Origin: Clostridia bacterium
GTDB taxonomy: Bacteria > Bacillota > Clostridia > Oscillospirales > Acutalibacteraceae
Direction: 5' to 3'
Length of the DNA: 64,000 nt
NCBI GenBank assembly: GCA_017442225.1
Contig: JAFSAR010000014.1
Span: forward strand, 1 to 64,000
Below are positions 5,854-17,346 of this stretch, one piece after another (the stretch's first letter is position 1; the number at the start of each line of letters is the position of its first letter). The translations under genes were made by a program, and so were the position numbers. The notes beneath the pieces are model-generated. The model saw only the letters and a list, made by a program, of their open reading frames with translations. It did no database searches and had not been told where the DNA came from.

Positions 5854-7362
5854 ATGGCTTACTACTTTAACGAAGTTTCGCACACTTTTAACGAGTATTT
5901 ATTGGTTCCCGGTTATTCGTCATCAGAGTGTGTTCCTGCAAATGTATCACTTAAAACTCCCCTTGTTAAATTTAAAAAGGGCGAACAACCCGCAATATCA
6001 ATGAACATACCGATGGTATCTGCAATTATGCAGGCCGTATCGGGCGAAAAATTGGCGGTAGCGCTTGCTCGCGAGGGCGGCGTATCCTTTATATACGGCT
6101 CACAAACCGTAGAGGACGAAGCCGCTATGGTGGCGCGCGCAAAAGCGTATAAGGCGGGTTTTGTTGTAAGCGCATCAAACGTAACGCCCGACAGCACCTT
6201 GCAGGATATATTAAACCTTAAGGAAAAGAATGGTTTTTCAACTGTAGCCGTTACATCCGACGGCACCGCAAACGGCAAGCTTTTAGGTATTGTTACAAGC
6301 CGTGACTACCGTGTAAGTCGTATGGACAAGTCTACATCTGTAGCTGATTTTATGACGCCTTTCGATAAGCTTGTTGTTGGTGACGAAACCACAACACTAA
6401 AACAAGCAAATGACATCATTTGGGATAATAAGTTAAATTCATTGCCTATCGTTGACGCTGACGGTAATCTTAAATACTTTGTTTTTAGAAAAGACTACGA
6501 TGCGCACAAAGAAAATCCCAACGAATTACTTGATAGTAAAAAACGTTACATCGTTGGCGCAGGTATAAATACACGTGACTATGCCCAGCGTGTTCCCGCC
6601 CTTATAAATGCGGGCGCAGATGTGCTTTGCATTGACTCGTCCGAGGGCTTTAGCGAATGGCAAAAACTTACTATCGCCTGGATTCGCGAGCATTACGGCG
6701 ACAGCGTTAAGGTTGGTGCTGGAAACGTCGTTGATGCCGAGGGCTTCCGTTTTCTTGCTGACTGCGGAGCCGACTTTATTAAAGTAGGTATCGGTGGTGG
6801 TTCAATCTGTATCACACGCGAAACAAAGGGTATCGGACGCGGACAGGCTACCGCGCTGATTGAGGTTTGTAAAGCGCGTGATGAATACTTTAAAGAAACA
6901 GGCGTATACGTTCCTGTTTGTTCTGACGGCGGTATCGTTCACGACCACCACATTACGCTCTCACTTGCTATGGGCGCTGACTTTGTTATGCTTGGTCGTT
7001 ACTTTGCCCGATTTGACGAAAGCCCCTCTAACAAGGTTCGCCTTAACGGTAGTTATTACAAGGAATATTGGGGCGAAGGCTCTGCCCGTGCGCGTAACTG
7101 GCAACGTTATGACCTTGGCGGTGATAAAAAATTATCTTTTGAGGAGGGCGTTGACTCTTACGTTCCTTATGCAGGCGCTTTAAAAGACAACGTTGCGTTA
7201 TCACTCAGCAAGGTAAAATCTACAATGTGTAACTGCGGCGCACTCACAATTCCCGAATTTCGTGACAAAGCAAAGCTGACCCTCGTATCGGCTACAAGTA
7301 TTGTCGAAGGCGGCGCGCACGACGTTATCCAAAAAGAAACTTCACTCGGCACAATTAAATAA
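5854..7362 (+). CDS. guaB: IMP dehydrogenase
   Basis: The enzyme oxidises IMP to XMP with NAD, the committed step to GMP. The 502 residues form a TIM barrel with two CBS domains inserted at about residues 105-215. IDSSEG (260-265) and the catalytic-loop cysteine C319 are present. The loop reads GGGSICITR instead of the usual GPGSICTTR, and the flap segment reads KGIGRGQ, as in a distinct clostridial subgroup, so the function is assigned by family with slightly less certainty than for a canonical GuaB. It is monocistronic, with its own promoter and a terminator at 7374-7401. Confidence 0.93.
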
Positions 7363-7373
7363 TATGCTATGTA

Positions 7374-7401
7374 AAGACCCCGACCGATTGGTCGGGGTCT
7401 T
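7374..7401. terminator. Bidirectional terminator between guaB and spoVM
   Basis: A perfect 12-bp stem, AAGACCCCGACC (7374-7385) and complement (7390-7401), with a GATT loop. It is 11 bases after the guaB stop on the plus strand and 6 bases after the spoVM stop on the minus strand, so it can serve both. Confidence 0.85.
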
Positions 7402-7407
7402 ATGTAT

Positions 7408-7491
7408 TTATACATTTTGCTTCTTTATACCGAATATCATTCGCAAAATTCCACTTAAAATTTTCGGACTCTTAACAAGTACTACTTTCAT
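7408..7491 (-). CDS. spoVM: Stage V sporulation protein M (SpoVM), 27 residues
   Basis: The product is MKVVLVKSPKILSGILRMIF plus GIKKQNV. It aligns without gaps to B. subtilis SpoVM (26 residues, recalled from memory): M1, K2, K7, P9, K10, L12, G14, I15, R17 and G21 agree, including P9, which is needed for function there. SpoVM is an amphipathic helix that recognises the convex forespore membrane and anchors the SpoIVA coat base layer. GGAGGG lies 8 bases before the ATG. The gene is too short for most gene finders. It follows the 50-residue membrane protein gene by 14 bases and ends at a shared terminator. Confidence 0.85.
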   Translation of the reverse strand: MKVVLVKSPKILSGILRMIFGIKKQNV

Positions 7492-7505
7492 TAAATAACC
7501 CTCCA

Positions 7506-7658
7506 TTAGTGCTTACAGCAGGATATACCGAGTATGATTACCCAAATTGCAAGTATACCGACTAAAAATTTAGGAGGGCAAAAACAGCTTATCAGTAATC
7601 CCACAGCGAAAACAATCGCTATAATCCCCTTGTTTGCGTTGTTACCTTTTCTACGCAT
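7506..7658 (-). CDS. Small membrane protein of unknown function, cotranscribed with spoVM
   Basis: The 50-residue product begins MRRKGNNANKGIIAIVFAVG, continues with LLISCFCPPKFLVGILAIWV and ends IILGISCCKH. It is a basic N-terminus of about 10 residues, two hydrophobic helices (about 12-25 and 31-46) separated by CFCPPK, and a CC near the end. The first ATG (7664) touches the GGAGGG ribosome site; the second, at 7658, has the right 6-base spacing and is preferred. I do not recognise a named family. Its position 14 bases before spoVM suggests a role in sporulation or coat assembly, which is inference from context only. Confidence 0.65.
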   Translation of the reverse strand: MRRKGNNANKGIIAIVFAVGLLISCFCPPKFLVGILAIWVIILGISCCKH

Positions 7659-7716
7659 TTTCATCCCTCCGTTATTACATAATAAGCTAAAAACGAAAAA
7701 ATGTTACAAAAGCCAA

Positions 7717-7751
7717 AAAAACGGCCTGATTTTATCAATCAAGCCGTTTTT
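7717..7751 (-). terminator. Terminator after tsf
   Basis: AAAAACGGC (7717-7725) pairs with GCCGTTTTT (7743-7751), and an inner TGATT/AATCA pair extends the stem across one mismatch. A long T run on the plus side and T-rich DNA on the minus side make it usable in both directions. It is 18 bases past the tsf stop. Confidence 0.8.
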
Positions 7752-7768
7752 TTTTGAATTATTTAATA

Positions 7769-8680
7769 TTATTTTACCATGCTTGCAACTTCGGCTGCGA
7801 AGTCGTCAACGCGCTTTTCAATGCCTTCGCCCTTTTCCATACGAACAAAGTCAACAAGCTTAACGTCAACGCCCATTTCTTTAGCGCAGTTTGCAACATA
7901 CTTGCCAACATTGATGTCGCCATCCATAACGAATGCCTGCTCAACAAGGCAGTTTTCTTTGTAATATTTGCCGATTTTACCCTCAACAATTTTACCGAGA
8001 ACTGCATCAGGCTTGTTAGCCATTTTGGGATCCTCTTTCATTTGTGAAATAAGGATTTCTTTTTCTTTTGCGATAACCTCTGCAGGAACAGAAGCCTCAT
8101 CAAGATAACTTGGGTTCATAGCAGCAATCTGCATTGCAACATTTTTACCCATAGTGATGAATGCGTCGCTTGAAGCGTCAACATTACCATCAAATTTAAC
8201 AAGAACACCGATTTTGCCGCCTGCGTGAACATAGTTTACAACGTTACCTTCAAAGCGAACAAAACGACGGATTTTTATGTTTTCACGAACTTTAAGGAAG
8301 AGTTCCTGAACCATTTCTTCAACGGTCTGACCGTTTGATACGCAAGCGTTAAGCGCGTCAACATCAGCAGGATTCTGCTCAGCGATAACCTTTGCTACCT
8401 TAAGTGCCAATTCCTTAAACTCGTCACCACCAGCAACGAAGTCGGTTTCTGCATTAAGCTCTACAGCAACACCTACGCCGTTTTCGCAGATAGCACAAAC
8501 AGTACCCTCGGCAGCAATTCTGCTTGCCTTTTTAGCCTGAGATGCAAGACCCTTCTCACGAAGATAGTCAACAGCTGCATCCATATCGCCATTGCACTCT
8601 ACGAGCGCCTTTTTGCAGTCCATCATACCGCAACCGGTTTTTTCTCTTAAAGCCTGAACGTCTTTAGCAGTAAAAGCCAT
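7769..8680 (-). CDS. tsf: Translation elongation factor Ts
   Basis: EF-Ts exchanges GDP for GTP on EF-Tu. The 303-residue product starts with the family signature, an N-terminal UBA-like domain with LREKTGCGMMDCKKAL at residues 11-26. The dimerisation core with AELNAETDFVAGG follows. A GGAGAT ribosome site precedes the ATG. It follows rpsB by about 30 bases, the standard rpsB-tsf pair, and ends at the terminator at 7717-7751. Confidence 0.98.
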   Translation of the reverse strand: MAFTAKDVQALREKTGCGMMDCKKALVECNGDMDAAVDYLREKGLASQAKKASRIAAEGTVCAICENGVGVAVELNAETDFVAGGDEFKELALKVAKVIAEQNPADVDALNACVSNGQTVEEMVQELFLKVRENIKIRRFVRFEGNVVNYVHAGGKIGVLVKFDGNVDASSDAFITMGKNVAMQIAAMNPSYLDEASVPAEVIAKEKEILISQMKEDPKMANKPDAVLGKIVEGKIGKYYKENCLVEQAFVMDGDINVGKYVANCAKEMGVDVKLVDFVRMEKGEGIEKRVDDFAAEVASMVK

Positions 8681-12259: not shown

Positions 12260-13718
12260 TTAAATCACTTCTTTTCTTTTTAAATTCGTAGTAATACATA
12301 TAGCCGATAACCGCCGCAATAACAAGCAACGACCATAAGAATGCGCTTTGTGGCAGTACAGCGACGGTTACTGGTAATTCTGCAAGCGTGTTTATCAATA
12401 ATACGATAAAGCGCGAACACAAGCCCGCAATCCATAATAAAAGTTCGCCAAGTATTTTTACAATAGGTATAACCGATATTATCAGCACGACTATATTTAA
12501 AATCAGCGCTATCATCACGGGATATGAAATCACCAAATTTGTAATCGGCGATATAATCGACACGTATCCAAATATTTTTATCGTTACAGGCAAGGTAAAA
12601 ATTATAGCAAAAACCGAGCACAAAACCGTGCTTAGTAAGGTTTTTACGATTTTTGACGAAATATTAAACCGCTCGGTAATAACACGGTAATAGAATGGTA
12701 CCGCCCAAATAATTGCAAGGGTGGATAAAACAGACAATTGAAATGATACGTTAAAAATTGTAAACGGCGCGCCAATAAGCACCGCTGTAACCGCAGTTAA
12801 AAGCGAACTGAGCGAATCATTCTCACGGTTAAACACAGGCGCAAGACCCGCGATAACAAACATAACCCCTGCTCTTGATATCGACATTGTAAAACCGCAA
12901 ACAGCAGAAATCAATACAACCGCTGCAACCGATAACAAACTACGTATATATTTATTATAAAACATTCGGTCTACACACCAAAATATCGCCATCATAATAA
13001 TGGACAGATGCATACCCGACACAACAATTATGTGGCTGATACCCGTGGTTTTTACGTTTTCTGAAAACTCATCGCTCAGCAAGGTTTTATCACCCGTTGT
13101 AAGCGCCACCAAGAGCCCCGCAGTATCACCTGAAAAAAGCGAAGACACCGTTTCTTTTGCGTAGGCGCGTATGTTACCCGCAATTTTATAAAAGCCGTTG
13201 CTGTCCCCCGATTTTTCAAGCGCGACAACGCTTGCCGTAGCATATATGCCGTTGCTGTAATCATAAAGTCTGTACTCGTCGTATCGATCAATAGCGCTAA
13301 GTTTTATAGTAGCGTCAACAATATTGCCCATTTTAAGTTCTGTTTGCTTATAATCAAACACAAAATACTTTGTATTTTGGGGTAAGATGCTGTTACCTTC
13401 AACCTTTAACGTCACGGTGTTAAAATTTTCGTAAGCCTCGGGCTCTGATACAACCAGAAATCTGCCGTCTATCTTTTGGTTATCATATCGGTTTATATTA
13501 TCAATATGATTAAACTGAAAATACAAACTAAGAGCAAATATAACAATCGCCGATGCGACCGTTATGTATTTATATTTTTTATAAAATATGGCAGTTGCAA
13601 GCATTATTAACGCTATTGCGATAACAACAAACGCCAGCAAATTTACAAAAAGGGATATTGCGGCCGCAACACAACACGTAAGCGCCGCAAAAAACATAGG
13701 TCTTTTCAGAATATCCAT
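12243..13718 (-). CDS. comEC: ComEC/Rec2-type DNA uptake channel, without the metallo-beta-lactamase domain
   Basis: The 491-residue membrane protein has three N-terminal helices, a DUF4131-like OB domain (about 75-170) and the Competence domain with ALTTGDKTLLSDEF and IIVVSGMHLSI, followed by a run of membrane helices. It would form the inner-membrane channel for single-stranded DNA in transformation. Family members of about 750 residues add a C-terminal metallo-beta-lactamase nuclease domain; this one stops after the last helices at a basic tail. The start shares one base with the mntP stop. Confidence 0.9.
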   Translation of the reverse strand: MDILKRPMFFAALTCCVAAAISLFVNLLAFVVIAIALIMLATAIFYKKYKYITVASAIVIFALSLYFQFNHIDNINRYDNQKIDGRFLVVSEPEAYENFNTVTLKVEGNSILPQNTKYFVFDYKQTELKMGNIVDATIKLSAIDRYDEYRLYDYSNGIYATASVVALEKSGDSNGFYKIAGNIRAYAKETVSSLFSGDTAGLLVALTTGDKTLLSDEFSENVKTTGISHIIVVSGMHLSIIMMAIFWCVDRMFYNKYIRSLLSVAAVVLISAVCGFTMSISRAGVMFVIAGLAPVFNRENDSLSSLLTAVTAVLIGAPFTIFNVSFQLSVLSTLAIIWAVPFYYRVITERFNISSKIVKTLLSTVLCSVFAIIFTLPVTIKIFGYVSIISPITNLVISYPVMIALILNIVVLIISVIPIVKILGELLLWIAGLCSRFIVLLINTLAELPVTVAVLPQSAFLWSLLVIAAVIGYMYYYEFKKKRSDLNANSV

Positions 13719-14290
13719 TACAGAATTAATATACCTAAATGCTCAAGTAATATCTTTGCGCCGATAAGTATTAAAATAACACCGCCTGCAAGCTCGGCCT
13801 TTGATTTGTAAACTGCGCCGAACCTGTGACCGATAAAAACACCGACAGCCGATAAAATAAAGGTCGTGACACCGATAACCAAAACCGACCAAAGAATTGA
13901 TGCAAGAGTTTCTATTCCGTCTATTGCAAAAGCTATACCCGCCGCCATTGCATCTATGCTTGTGGCGATAGCCATTATAAACAGTTCTTTAATGTCAAAG
14001 TCGCCGCAATCGTCATCGTCGCCCTTAAATGATTCATAAATCATTTTGCCGCCTATAAATACCAGCAATGCAAAGGCGACCCAATGGTCAAAGCTCTCGA
14101 TATATTCCTTAAAACTGTGACCGAGCATCCAACCGATAAACGGCATCAACGCCTGAAAACCGCCAAAGAATAACGCAATAAGTCCCATTTGCTTATAGTT
14201 GAGTTTCTGCATTTTAAGGCCTTTGCAAATGGCAACGGCAAAAGCATCCATAGAAAGCGCCACACCCGTTAAAAATACGGTAACAAACAT
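13718..14290 (-). CDS. mntP: Manganese efflux pump MntP family
   Basis: The 190-residue protein has six predicted membrane segments and the two repeated family motifs, ALSMDAFAVAICKG at residues 11-24 and ATSIDAMAAGIAFA in the second half, with the aspartates thought to carry the metal. MntP exports Mn(II). No yybP-ykoY riboswitch is seen upstream; the gene is 17 bases after rsgA inside the operon. Which metal it exports is inferred from the family. Confidence 0.92.
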   Translation of the reverse strand: MFVTVFLTGVALSMDAFAVAICKGLKMQKLNYKQMGLIALFFGGFQALMPFIGWMLGHSFKEYIESFDHWVAFALLVFIGGKMIYESFKGDDDDCGDFDIKELFIMAIATSIDAMAAGIAFAIDGIETLASILWSVLVIGVTTFILSAVGVFIGHRFGAVYKSKAELAGGVILILIGAKILLEHLGILIL

Positions 14291-14307: not shown

Positions 14308-15192
14308 TTATTTTTGCTTAGTATTCCAAGCGGTAACGTCTTTTAGTTCAGTCATTAAAGCGACGTAACTGTCGTGACGTGATTTTTGAATATCTCCGCC
14401 TTTTACCGCTTGCAAAACGGCGCAACCTTTTTCCGTAGTATGAGAACAAGACGTAAATTTGCATCCGTCAACGTAGTCGCTGAAATCGGGAAAACAATAA
14501 GCGAGCGACTGCTTAAAATCATATAAATCCTCATTTGTATCTACGGTAGAAAAACCAGGTGTGTCAACAACGTACGCGCCGTCGCCAACAAAAAAAAGTT
14601 CGGTATGACGGGTTGTGTGTCTGCCGCGACCAAGCTTGTCGCTTACCTCGCCTGTTTTTAACTGTAATTTTGGAAACAACGCGTTTAATATACTTGACTT
14701 ACCAACGCCCGAATTGCCCGAAAAGGCGCAGACGCTGCCTTTCATTTCGTCTTTTAGCCGAGCAATACCGATATTTTCTTTTGCCGAGACGATAAACGTT
14801 TTAAAGCCTGCCGCAGTATAGATTTTATAAAATTCATCAAAACTTCCCATATCGGATTTATTAAAAACGATTATAGGCTCTATATTGTTATACACTGCAA
14901 GCGCCGTAAGCCTGTCAATCATAAGTGTATCGGGCGCAGGAGTGCTGAAAGCAGACACAATAAACAGCTTATCAATATTGGCAACTAATGGTCGGTTAAA
15001 CAGATTTTTTCTCTCACATATACCTTCAACTATGCCGCGTGTATTATCGGTTAACGCAAATTCTACTGTATCACCCACAACAGGGGAAACTCCCGCTTTG
15101 CGAAAGTTTCCCCTGGCTTTACATTCGTATACATTACCGTCGCAAGCGACGTAGTAAAAGCCGGAAATTGCTTTAATCAGTATACCTGTCAT
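14308..15192 (-). CDS. rsgA: Small-subunit assembly GTPase RsgA (YloQ/CpgA)
   Basis: RsgA is a circularly permuted GTPase that checks the decoding centre late in 30S assembly. The 294 residues show an OB domain, the permuted G motifs NKSD then SGNSGVGKSSILNAL, the catalytic loop GRGRHTTRH, DTPGF, and the C-terminal zinc site with CKFTSCSHTTEKGC. It follows pknB by 3 bases, the same pairing as prkC-cpgA in B. subtilis, where the kinase phosphorylates this GTPase. Confidence 0.97.
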   Translation of the reverse strand: MTGILIKAISGFYYVACDGNVYECKARGNFRKAGVSPVVGDTVEFALTDNTRGIVEGICERKNLFNRPLVANIDKLFIVSAFSTPAPDTLMIDRLTALAVYNNIEPIIVFNKSDMGSFDEFYKIYTAAGFKTFIVSAKENIGIARLKDEMKGSVCAFSGNSGVGKSSILNALFPKLQLKTGEVSDKLGRGRHTTRHTELFFVGDGAYVVDTPGFSTVDTNEDLYDFKQSLAYCFPDFSDYVDGCKFTSCSHTTEKGCAVLQAVKGGDIQKSRHDSYVALMTELKDVTAWNTKQK

Positions 15193-15195
15193 ATT

Positions 15196-17346
15196 TTACT
15201 CTGCATCCGGACACGTATGTTCAGCATCTTTGTGATATACCGTGTCGCAATCTTCACAGGTCTTGTGGTCTGCATCAGTATGAGTTTTACCGTCGGTAAG
15301 TTCAACACCGCAAACATCACAAACGGTCGGTTCTATGTCAGATGATGTTGTAGAAACATACTTTTTATAATCGGTCTTTTTGTTTATCTCGGTAGTTTTA
15401 TCCTTTGAAGCATCCACCTTAACAGTAGCATAGTTATAGTATTCTTCATCGGTTCCAAAACGAACTTTAACCGTATATTCAAGTTCCTTTTCTGTGCCTG
15501 TCATCTTTTCAAAAGTGTAAGAACTCTTCTCAGAAAAAGCAAGTTTTTCGCTCTCTTTTATCATCTTGCCTTCCGACCAGAGTGATACGTAACCCGTTGA
15601 TTCATAATTGGTAAAGTCACTTCTTATCGCAACGGTTGGCGCAAAGGTGTAATTGGTAACGCCTGTGCTTACGTAAATCTTGATAGTCGTACCCTCGGGC
15701 ACCTGCTCGCTCGAGTTAGCGTCAGGCTCTTGAGCAATAACGTAACCCTTCGGATACTCTTTTTCGCTGGCAGTAAGGTCGCGCGGCTCGCTTTCTACTA
15801 CAAGACCTAATTTTTCAATATCGGCCTTTGCCTTCTCTTCGGTAAGACCTACAACGTTGGGTATGTCAAGCATCTTGGTTGCTTTACCTGTACTTACGTA
15901 AACCGTAATTTCGGCGCCCTCTGCCATAACGGTAGTGCGCGCAGGCTCGGTTTTTATAACAAGACCTGCCTCAACCTCATCGTCGGCTACTTCTTTTACA
16001 TTGGTAACAAAACCTTTTGACTTAAGCTCAGACACGGCGTAAGATTCGGTTTTACCGTAAACGTCGGGAACCTTAACGTTAGTCTGACCCGTGCTTACGT
16101 AAAGCGTAATTGCAGCGCCGTTTTTAAGTTTTTTGCCTGCGGACTGTGACTGGTCGCAAACAACGCCAATCTCATATTCCTCGCTTGCGGTATATTCCCA
16201 CTCAATCTCAAAGGAATTAAAGTTTTCGTGCTGCTTTACATCTTCGATTGTCATACCGATAAACTTAGGACACTCTATCTCAGCGCCCGTGCCCTTGAAT
16301 AACTTTGGCACAAAAATTATTGCAAGAATGATAATCGCAATAATAAGAGCAGATGCTATACCCGCGAGTATCGGTATCATATTATTCTTTTCTTTAACCT
16401 CTTCTACCTCATCATCTTCTTCCTCGACAACAGCTGACGCAGGGGTTGAAGAGATAAGAGTATCTACAAATTTTGTGGGTGCATTATCCACAAAATATGA
16501 ATAATCAAAGGTTGATTCGGGGTCTTTTTTAAACTGCTCTAAATCGCAAAGCAACTCAGACGCCGACTGATAACGGCGTTCGGGTGTTTTTTGCATAGCG
16601 TGCATTGTAATCTGTTCAAGGCCTACAGGAATAGCAGGGTTTATCTCGGTAGGCAACTTAGGATCGCGCTGAAGCTGCATAATAGCAACCGACACTGCGC
16701 TTTCAGCCTCAAACGGCAACTGACCTGTAAGCATCTCGTAAAGCATAACGCCTACAGAGTAGATATCTGCCTTTTCGTCGGTCTTTTCGCCACGAGCCTG
16801 TTCAGGACTGATATAATGCACAGAGCCTATTGCCTTATCGGTAATGGTGCGCTGTTCATTTCTTGCAAAACGCGCGATACCAAAGTCGGCAACCTTAATG
16901 GTACCGTCGGAAAGCACCATAATGTTCTGCGGTTTAACGTCACGGTGAACGATGCCCTTATCGTGAGCGTGCTGCAAGCCCTTTAAAATCTGAATTGTAA
17001 AGTATACGGCATCTTTCCATCTGAGGCTACCTTGACGCTCGATAAACTCTTTTAGGGTGATACCGTCTATGTATTCCATAACGATATACTGAATAAGGTC
17101 GCCAAAGCTTACATCATAAACCTTTACAATATTTGGGTGTGAAAGCACCGCAATCGCCTTTGATTCGTTTTTAAATCGACGGATAAACTCTTCATTGGAA
17201 ACAAATTCTTCTTTAAGAATTTTAATGGCAACCGTGCGATTTTCAACGTTGTCGTGCGCTTTATACACAACAGCCATACCGCCAACGCCTATAATTTCCT
17301 GAATTTCATATCGTCCGTCTAAGCGCTTACCTACAAATCTATCCAT
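15196..17346 (-). CDS. pknB: PASTA-domain Ser/Thr protein kinase with a cysteine-rich extracellular tail
   Basis: The 716-residue protein is a PrkC/Stk1-type receptor kinase. The kinase domain (about 10-275) has the glycine loop at 20-25, K42, HRD at 134-136 and DFG at 154-156. A single membrane helix is at about 323-347. Three PASTA repeats (about 355-565) bind muropeptides or lipid II in known members, linking the cell wall to growth or germination. After a beta-rich domain, residues 676-716 hold two CxxC pairs and several histidines, a zinc-ribbon-like tail on the outer face, which is unusual for the family. The partner phosphatase gene is 21 bases upstream. Confidence 0.95.
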   Translation of the reverse strand: MDRFVGKRLDGRYEIQEIIGVGGMAVVYKAHDNVENRTVAIKILKEEFVSNEEFIRRFKNESKAIAVLSHPNIVKVYDVSFGDLIQYIVMEYIDGITLKEFIERQGSLRWKDAVYFTIQILKGLQHAHDKGIVHRDVKPQNIMVLSDGTIKVADFGIARFARNEQRTITDKAIGSVHYISPEQARGEKTDEKADIYSVGVMLYEMLTGQLPFEAESAVSVAIMQLQRDPKLPTEINPAIPVGLEQITMHAMQKTPERRYQSASELLCDLEQFKKDPESTFDYSYFVDNAPTKFVDTLISSTPASAVVEEEDDEVEEVKEKNNMIPILAGIASALIIAIIILAIIFVPKLFKGTGAEIECPKFIGMTIEDVKQHENFNSFEIEWEYTASEEYEIGVVCDQSQSAGKKLKNGAAITLYVSTGQTNVKVPDVYGKTESYAVSELKSKGFVTNVKEVADDEVEAGLVIKTEPARTTVMAEGAEITVYVSTGKATKMLDIPNVVGLTEEKAKADIEKLGLVVESEPRDLTASEKEYPKGYVIAQEPDANSSEQVPEGTTIKIYVSTGVTNYTFAPTVAIRSDFTNYESTGYVSLWSEGKMIKESEKLAFSEKSSYTFEKMTGTEKELEYTVKVRFGTDEEYYNYATVKVDASKDKTTEINKKTDYKKYVSTTSSDIEPTVCDVCGVELTDGKTHTDADHKTCEDCDTVYHKDAEHTCPDAE

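Follow-up and report, generated by a model that had tools for sequence, protein, structure and literature searches.

The open reading frame on the minus strand at positions 7408-7491 of the window, i.e., of the whole analysed stretch of 64,000 nucleotides, is in all probability spoVM, the second gene of a unit that is opened by a small gene termed p52, comes with a promoter-like element and terminators of its own, and has been relocated several times. The spoVM gene as such is an expected find in the window and the wider interest lies with p52. Tentatively, and at somewhat less than even chances, p52 is taken to represent an unrecognised family of small membrane proteins that serves as a dedicated partner of clostridial SpoVM, the pair being ancestral and p52 revealing divergent SpoVMs in many clostridia so far regarded as devoid of it, including variants in which the helix-kinking Pro9 is replaced by Pro8 or lost.

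Identification of spoVM

The following features define the gene.

7408-7491, minus strand: spoVM (P0001), 27 codons plus stop, assigned from NF033436, the alignment with 2mvh, single copy and dN/dS
7499-7504, minus strand: ribosome-binding site GGAGGG of spoVM, read from the sequence, 7 nt before the ATG

The ATG of spoVM lies at 7491-7489, the stop ends at 7408 and the product is MKVVLVKSPKILSGILRMIFGIKKQNV. The plus strand of this segment is interrupted by a stop, and the open frame is found on the minus strand only. The preliminary description had given the same coordinates, which hold, and had left the strand unstated; it had placed a 27-codon spoVM between guaB and tsf, of which the gene itself stands and the direct adjacency to tsf does not, as p52 (7506-7664) intervenes.

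A search of the peptide against NCBIfam revealed a match to the curated equivalog model of SpoVM, NF033436, with 50.2 bits (E 1.9e-13) at a cut-off of 31. The search of Pfam, which has no SpoVM model, gave no matching model. The sole PDB match was B. subtilis SpoVM (2mvh), aligned gap-free over residues 1-22 and weak if taken alone (E 0.19); K2, K7, P9, K10, L12, G14, I15, R17 and G21 were identical, which are all nine residues of the gap-free B. subtilis alignment claimed before. The functional residues K2, P9 and I15 are present, and position 6 is a hydrophobic V (I in B. subtilis); K2, position 6, P9 and I15 are known to matter in B. subtilis SpoVM (PMC5607322). The hydrophobic moment of the helix after the proline was 0.55 (0.46 in B. 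subtilis), a value reached by 5.9% of shuffled sequences.

A profile search of the organism's own genome (1.56 Mb, 25 contigs, 97% complete) revealed 7408-7491 as the sole match and no second spoVM, a second copy being one of two findings that had been named as refuting the assignment, the other being a frame unconserved in relatives. The GGAGGG located 7 nt 5' of the ATG conforms with the good ribosome site noted earlier, and similar sites precede spoVM in most same-genus relatives. An alternative start giving 32 codons (ATG at 7506) overlaps the ribosome site and was discarded. Judged from its sequence, the 27-codon frame is a genuine spoVM and a plain member of the known family. The preliminary remark that such genes are routinely missed agrees with the literature, where common misses of SpoVM are put down to its small size (PMC3533761).

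Conservation within the genus

Of 60 other genomes assigned to the genus, 51 carry the gene; several of the nine that gave no match are less complete. Over 46 sequences, the entropy at the three codon positions was 0.57/0.06/1.08 bits, and the median pairwise dN/dS was 0.108 (pairs with dS 0.05-1.5). The frame is thus conserved in relatives, and spoVM evolves under purifying selection. A chance open reading frame or a decayed remnant might be suspected from the mere 27 codons and from Pfam having no model; the NF033436 score of 50.2 bits, the dN/dS of 0.11 and the conserved ribosome sites and start speak against this. The conservation tests refute such an origin, to which we assign next to no probability.

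The upstream gene p52

Two features were located directly upstream of spoVM.

7506-7664, minus strand: p52, small two-helix membrane protein, assigned from position, dN/dS, profile searches and model
7665-7670, minus strand: ribosome-binding site GGAGGG of p52, read from the sequence

A gap of 14 nt separates the p52 stop from the start of spoVM. The first ATG of p52 is at 7664 and a second one, which gives a protein of 50 aa, at 7658; the latter is the likelier start because GGAGGG abuts the first ATG and sits 6 nt before the second. p52 is found directly 5' of spoVM in the window and in 50 of 51 same-genus loci, the exception ending at a contig edge, and the gap between the two genes was 11-27 nt in the 45 same-genus loci measured.

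Searches of Pfam and NCBIfam with p52 of the window gave no curated match above cut-off (best Pfam matches, DUF6249 and DUF5510, below cut-off); for other p52 members the same collections yielded scattered weak matches only, and the PDB no relative. A single-sequence AlphaFold model predicted helices at residues 8-28 and 32-50 with moderate confidence (pLDDT 76.5, pTM 0.42), a quality insufficient as a basis for fold comparison. The sequence of p52 is variable; a pair of hydrophobic helices, along with a conserved P and G, is retained from family to family. With a dN/dS of ~0.19, the p52 protein sequence is under purifying selection.

These data bear on the idea that p52 is a cis-acting translational leader that opens the spoVM ribosome site, in which case its peptide sequence would matter little and the linkage would be regulatory only. 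While the short stop-start gap would suit coupling and both genes are tiny, the selection on the protein, the persisting helices with their conserved residues and the ribosome site that spoVM has of its own argue against a leader, making this role quite unlikely.

p52 and SpoVM-like genes beyond the genus

In other families of the order, a small hydrophobic open reading frame was seen by eye 5' of spoVM in most loci. A p52 profile built from genus and order members was run over 1418 open reading frames from class-level spoVM loci, where it selected the one directly upstream of spoVM nearly everywhere it scored. Applied without use of spoVM, the p52 profile matched 45 of 147 genomes of the class; p52 and NF033436 matches, obtained with independent models, were adjacent in all eight class genomes having both. 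When 199 genomes from the phylum were searched with a broader p52 profile, matches appeared in the window's own genome and in 15 additional ones.

Upon inspection of the 44 p52 loci outside the genus (29 from the class, 15 from the phylum), a SpoVM-like open reading frame was seen directly downstream of p52 in every one (44/44). A SpoVM-HMM trained on SpoVMs found without p52 had its best match of the locus at most 60 nt downstream of p52 in 42 of 44 cases; in the other two, which scored 3.4 bits only, the distance was 63 nt. A strict SpoVM pattern was present downstream of p52 in 14/29 loci versus 0/428 control stretches. Most of the SpoVM-like frames beside p52 went unreported by NF033436 at the threshold used, and one of ten that were rescored passed the cut-off.

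Pro9 has been described as the only fully conserved residue of SpoVM (PMC5607322). It is absent from seven SpoVM-like frames downstream of p52 (L298, L299, L301, L302, L304, L306, L321), six of which carry Pro8 instead. The seventh, from G238 (MKVVVVKGSKFWGFVLRKMFHIKKEQ), is without any proline, yet p52 and spoIVA adjoin it.

Of the 45 p52-positive genomes, 42 also have SpoIVA (Fisher p 4e-4), and in at least 10 genomes (e.g., G111, G141, G229, G238) spoIVA is no more than ~4 kb away from p52 or spoVM. In G111, G141 and G229, spoIVA is divergent from p52-spoVM with ~200-210 bp between the matches. Three genomes, G137, G145 and G178 (94-99% complete), have p52 without a SpoIVA match; a SpoVM-like frame follows p52 in both loci read, G137 and G178.

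Galperin et al. (2012) reported several clostridia in which no SpoVM could be identified, and raised the question of whether distant versions exist (PMC3533761). The p52 profile, which points to SpoVM-like frames in 44/44 examined loci outside the genus, bears on this question, and provides spore biologists with a marker by which overlooked spoVM genes can be flagged and with a candidate for a partner protein.

Relocation of the p52-spoVM unit

The surroundings of the unit in the window comprise the following genes.

5854-7362, plus strand: guaB-like gene, open reading frame of 502 aa, convergent with spoVM, name consistent with the sequence
7769-8680, minus strand: tsf, open reading frame of 303 aa, upstream neighbour, 503 encoded relatives in genome contigs
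13718-14290: mntP, follows the window's rsgA
14308-15192, minus strand: rsgA (cpgA homologue), assigned from the open reading frame and relatives in other genomes
15196-17346: prkC, precedes the window's rsgA

The preliminary description had proposed that spoVM moved next to guaB and that neighbours in related genomes be compared; the comparison was run and supports a relocation, in which p52 took part. The order prkC-rsgA-p52-spoVM, corresponding to the neighbourhood of B. subtilis cpgA, is kept in 32 of 51 same-genus relatives. The clade of the window has p52-spoVM beside guaB (window, G004, G006, G009, G011, G033, G034, G056), and rsgA of the window is followed by mntP. The remaining sites are after an mgtC-like (5) or mgtE-like gene (3), before yceD (2) or elsewhere, the mgtC-like and mgtE-like labels being read from the gene sequence.

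On a SpoIVA tree of 49 genomes with six context labels, at least 9 label changes were required compared with 19.2 for shuffled labels. The mgtC-context group formed one clade (100/98) and the guaB context required 2-3 changes. We conclude that the p52-spoVM pair moved as one unit several times within the genus, and the guaB position therefore reflects one relocation of the intact unit. Two points were absent from the preliminary description, namely the two-gene unit with p52 and the location of rsgA, on the same strand, just 6.8 kb upstream of spoVM.

Between 5854 and 9502 of the window, guaB and rpsB-tsf are convergent, whereas they are divergent in many relatives (guaB on the minus and rpsB-tsf on the plus strand, e.g., in L038 and L043). 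This difference in orientation implies that the region around spoVM was rearranged.

Promoter-like element and terminators

Three putative signals flank the unit.

7679-7707, minus strand: promoter-like element GTAACA-17-TATTAT upstream of p52, from a consensus scan
7715-7753, minus strand: terminator-like hairpin that splits tsf from p52-spoVM
7374-7401, listed on the plus strand: terminator-like hairpin in the spacer of the convergent pair spoVM and guaB, with a 12-pair symmetric stem and an A/T-rich tail on each side

Of 45 same-genus loci, 39 had the motif GTAAC-N16/17-NWTAYWNTR 5' of p52 versus 0.01 expected from resampled sequence, and the other six were mostly near misses by eye. The element persists even between loci whose upstream DNA is unrelated, and so moved together with the unit. 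A genome-wide scan for the strict form of the element returned its own site only; a looser form gave 7 sites compared with 8 in the reversed control. As this is no enrichment, no regulon is claimed. An assignment of the element to sigmaK or sigmaE was dropped, as a sigmaA-type promoter fits too.

At 13 of the 17 spoIVA loci read in the genus (L269-L284, L288), a sigmaE-like motif, RTCATW-N13-17-CATANNWT, was present upstream of the gene. Upstream of p52-spoVM, this motif was found in 0 of 45 same-genus loci, and the two coat-anchor genes may thus be switched on differently.

The shared promoter-like element and terminators, together with the cotranscription known from C. difficile (PMC5607322), would also be explained if p52 and spoVM were sporulation genes with nothing but their regulation in common, performing unrelated functions in the membrane and held together through one promoter. 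Co-regulation alone, however, rarely maintains a gene order over this many families and through repeated relocations. We regard this explanation as rather unlikely, if less so than a translational leader.

Plausible sporulation genotype and possible role of p52

The organism's own genome encodes SpoIVA (TIGR02836, 709 bits; cut-off 459.9) and Spo0A (290.7 bits, above cut-off). Its best sigmaE match scored 310.9 bits, below the curated cut-off of 348.6, and its SpoIIID match 109.2 bits, narrowly under the cut-off of 111.5. With SpoIVA and Spo0A encoded and sigmaE and SpoIIID closely matched, a coat-anchoring role is plausible, as is a sporulation genotype of this uncultured organism as far as its gene content indicates. 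Among the 147 class genomes sampled, NF033436 matched 29, each of which has SpoIVA.

It is known that SpoVM inserts into the outer forespore membrane, a surface of positive curvature, and recruits SpoIVA (PMC5607322). By analogy with B. subtilis, we infer that the mother cell would synthesise the peptide, which would take up position as an amphipathic helix on the convex surface of the outer forespore membrane and there recruit the ATPase SpoIVA, whose polymer would found the spore coat. p52 may sit in the same membrane and assist SpoVM insertion, stability or SpoIVA anchoring.

Among the roles considered for p52, the most likely, if just short of an even chance, is ranked ahead of co-regulation and of a translational leader: p52 would be a functional partner of SpoVM in the outer forespore membrane that helps to insert or stabilise SpoVM or tethers SpoIVA. 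Such a partnership would account for an adjacency that persists through relocations and deep divergence, seen in 51 same-genus and 44 further loci, with pair and promoter-like element staying together through several moves. The co-occurrence of p52 with SpoIVA and the proximity of spoIVA in at least 10 genomes point in the same direction. On the other hand, 3 of the 45 p52-positive genomes are without a SpoIVA match, and the p52 sequence is variable. In C. difficile, moreover, a spoVM mutant is nearly normal, and an insertion in the upstream gene CD25622, polar on spoVM, has the same mild phenotype as spoVM loss with nothing visible added (PMC5607322). It follows from these mild phenotypes that the importance of p52 may be small.

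Comparison with known systems

SpoVM of the window resembles that of B. subtilis in M1-K2, K7, P9, K10, L12, G14, I15, R17, G21 and the hydrophobic position 6, as well as in its similar length, single copy and the presence of SpoIVA in the same genome. It differs in having V for I at position 6 and 27 instead of 26 residues. Unlike in B. subtilis, the gene has p52 directly upstream and adjoins guaB, lying outside the prkC-cpgA cluster.

In C. difficile, a gene for a 50-aa protein, CD25622, shares a sigmaE-dependent transcript with spoVM, and SpoVM binds SpoIVA (PMC5607322). As in the window, a frame of ~50 codons immediately precedes spoVM in the same orientation, and SpoVM is accompanied by SpoIVA; judged by their description, CD25622-spoVM and p52-spoVM look like the same arrangement. 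A search of the open-access literature found CD25622 named in no other paper, and within the limits of that search the breadth of a p52-type upstream gene seems unreported. CD25622 was reported as primarily conserved in Peptostreptococcaceae (PMC5607322), whereas the p52-spoVM arrangement occurs in many families. This suggests that an upstream gene regarded as confined to the family of C. difficile is widespread, and its function could therefore be tested in easier hosts.
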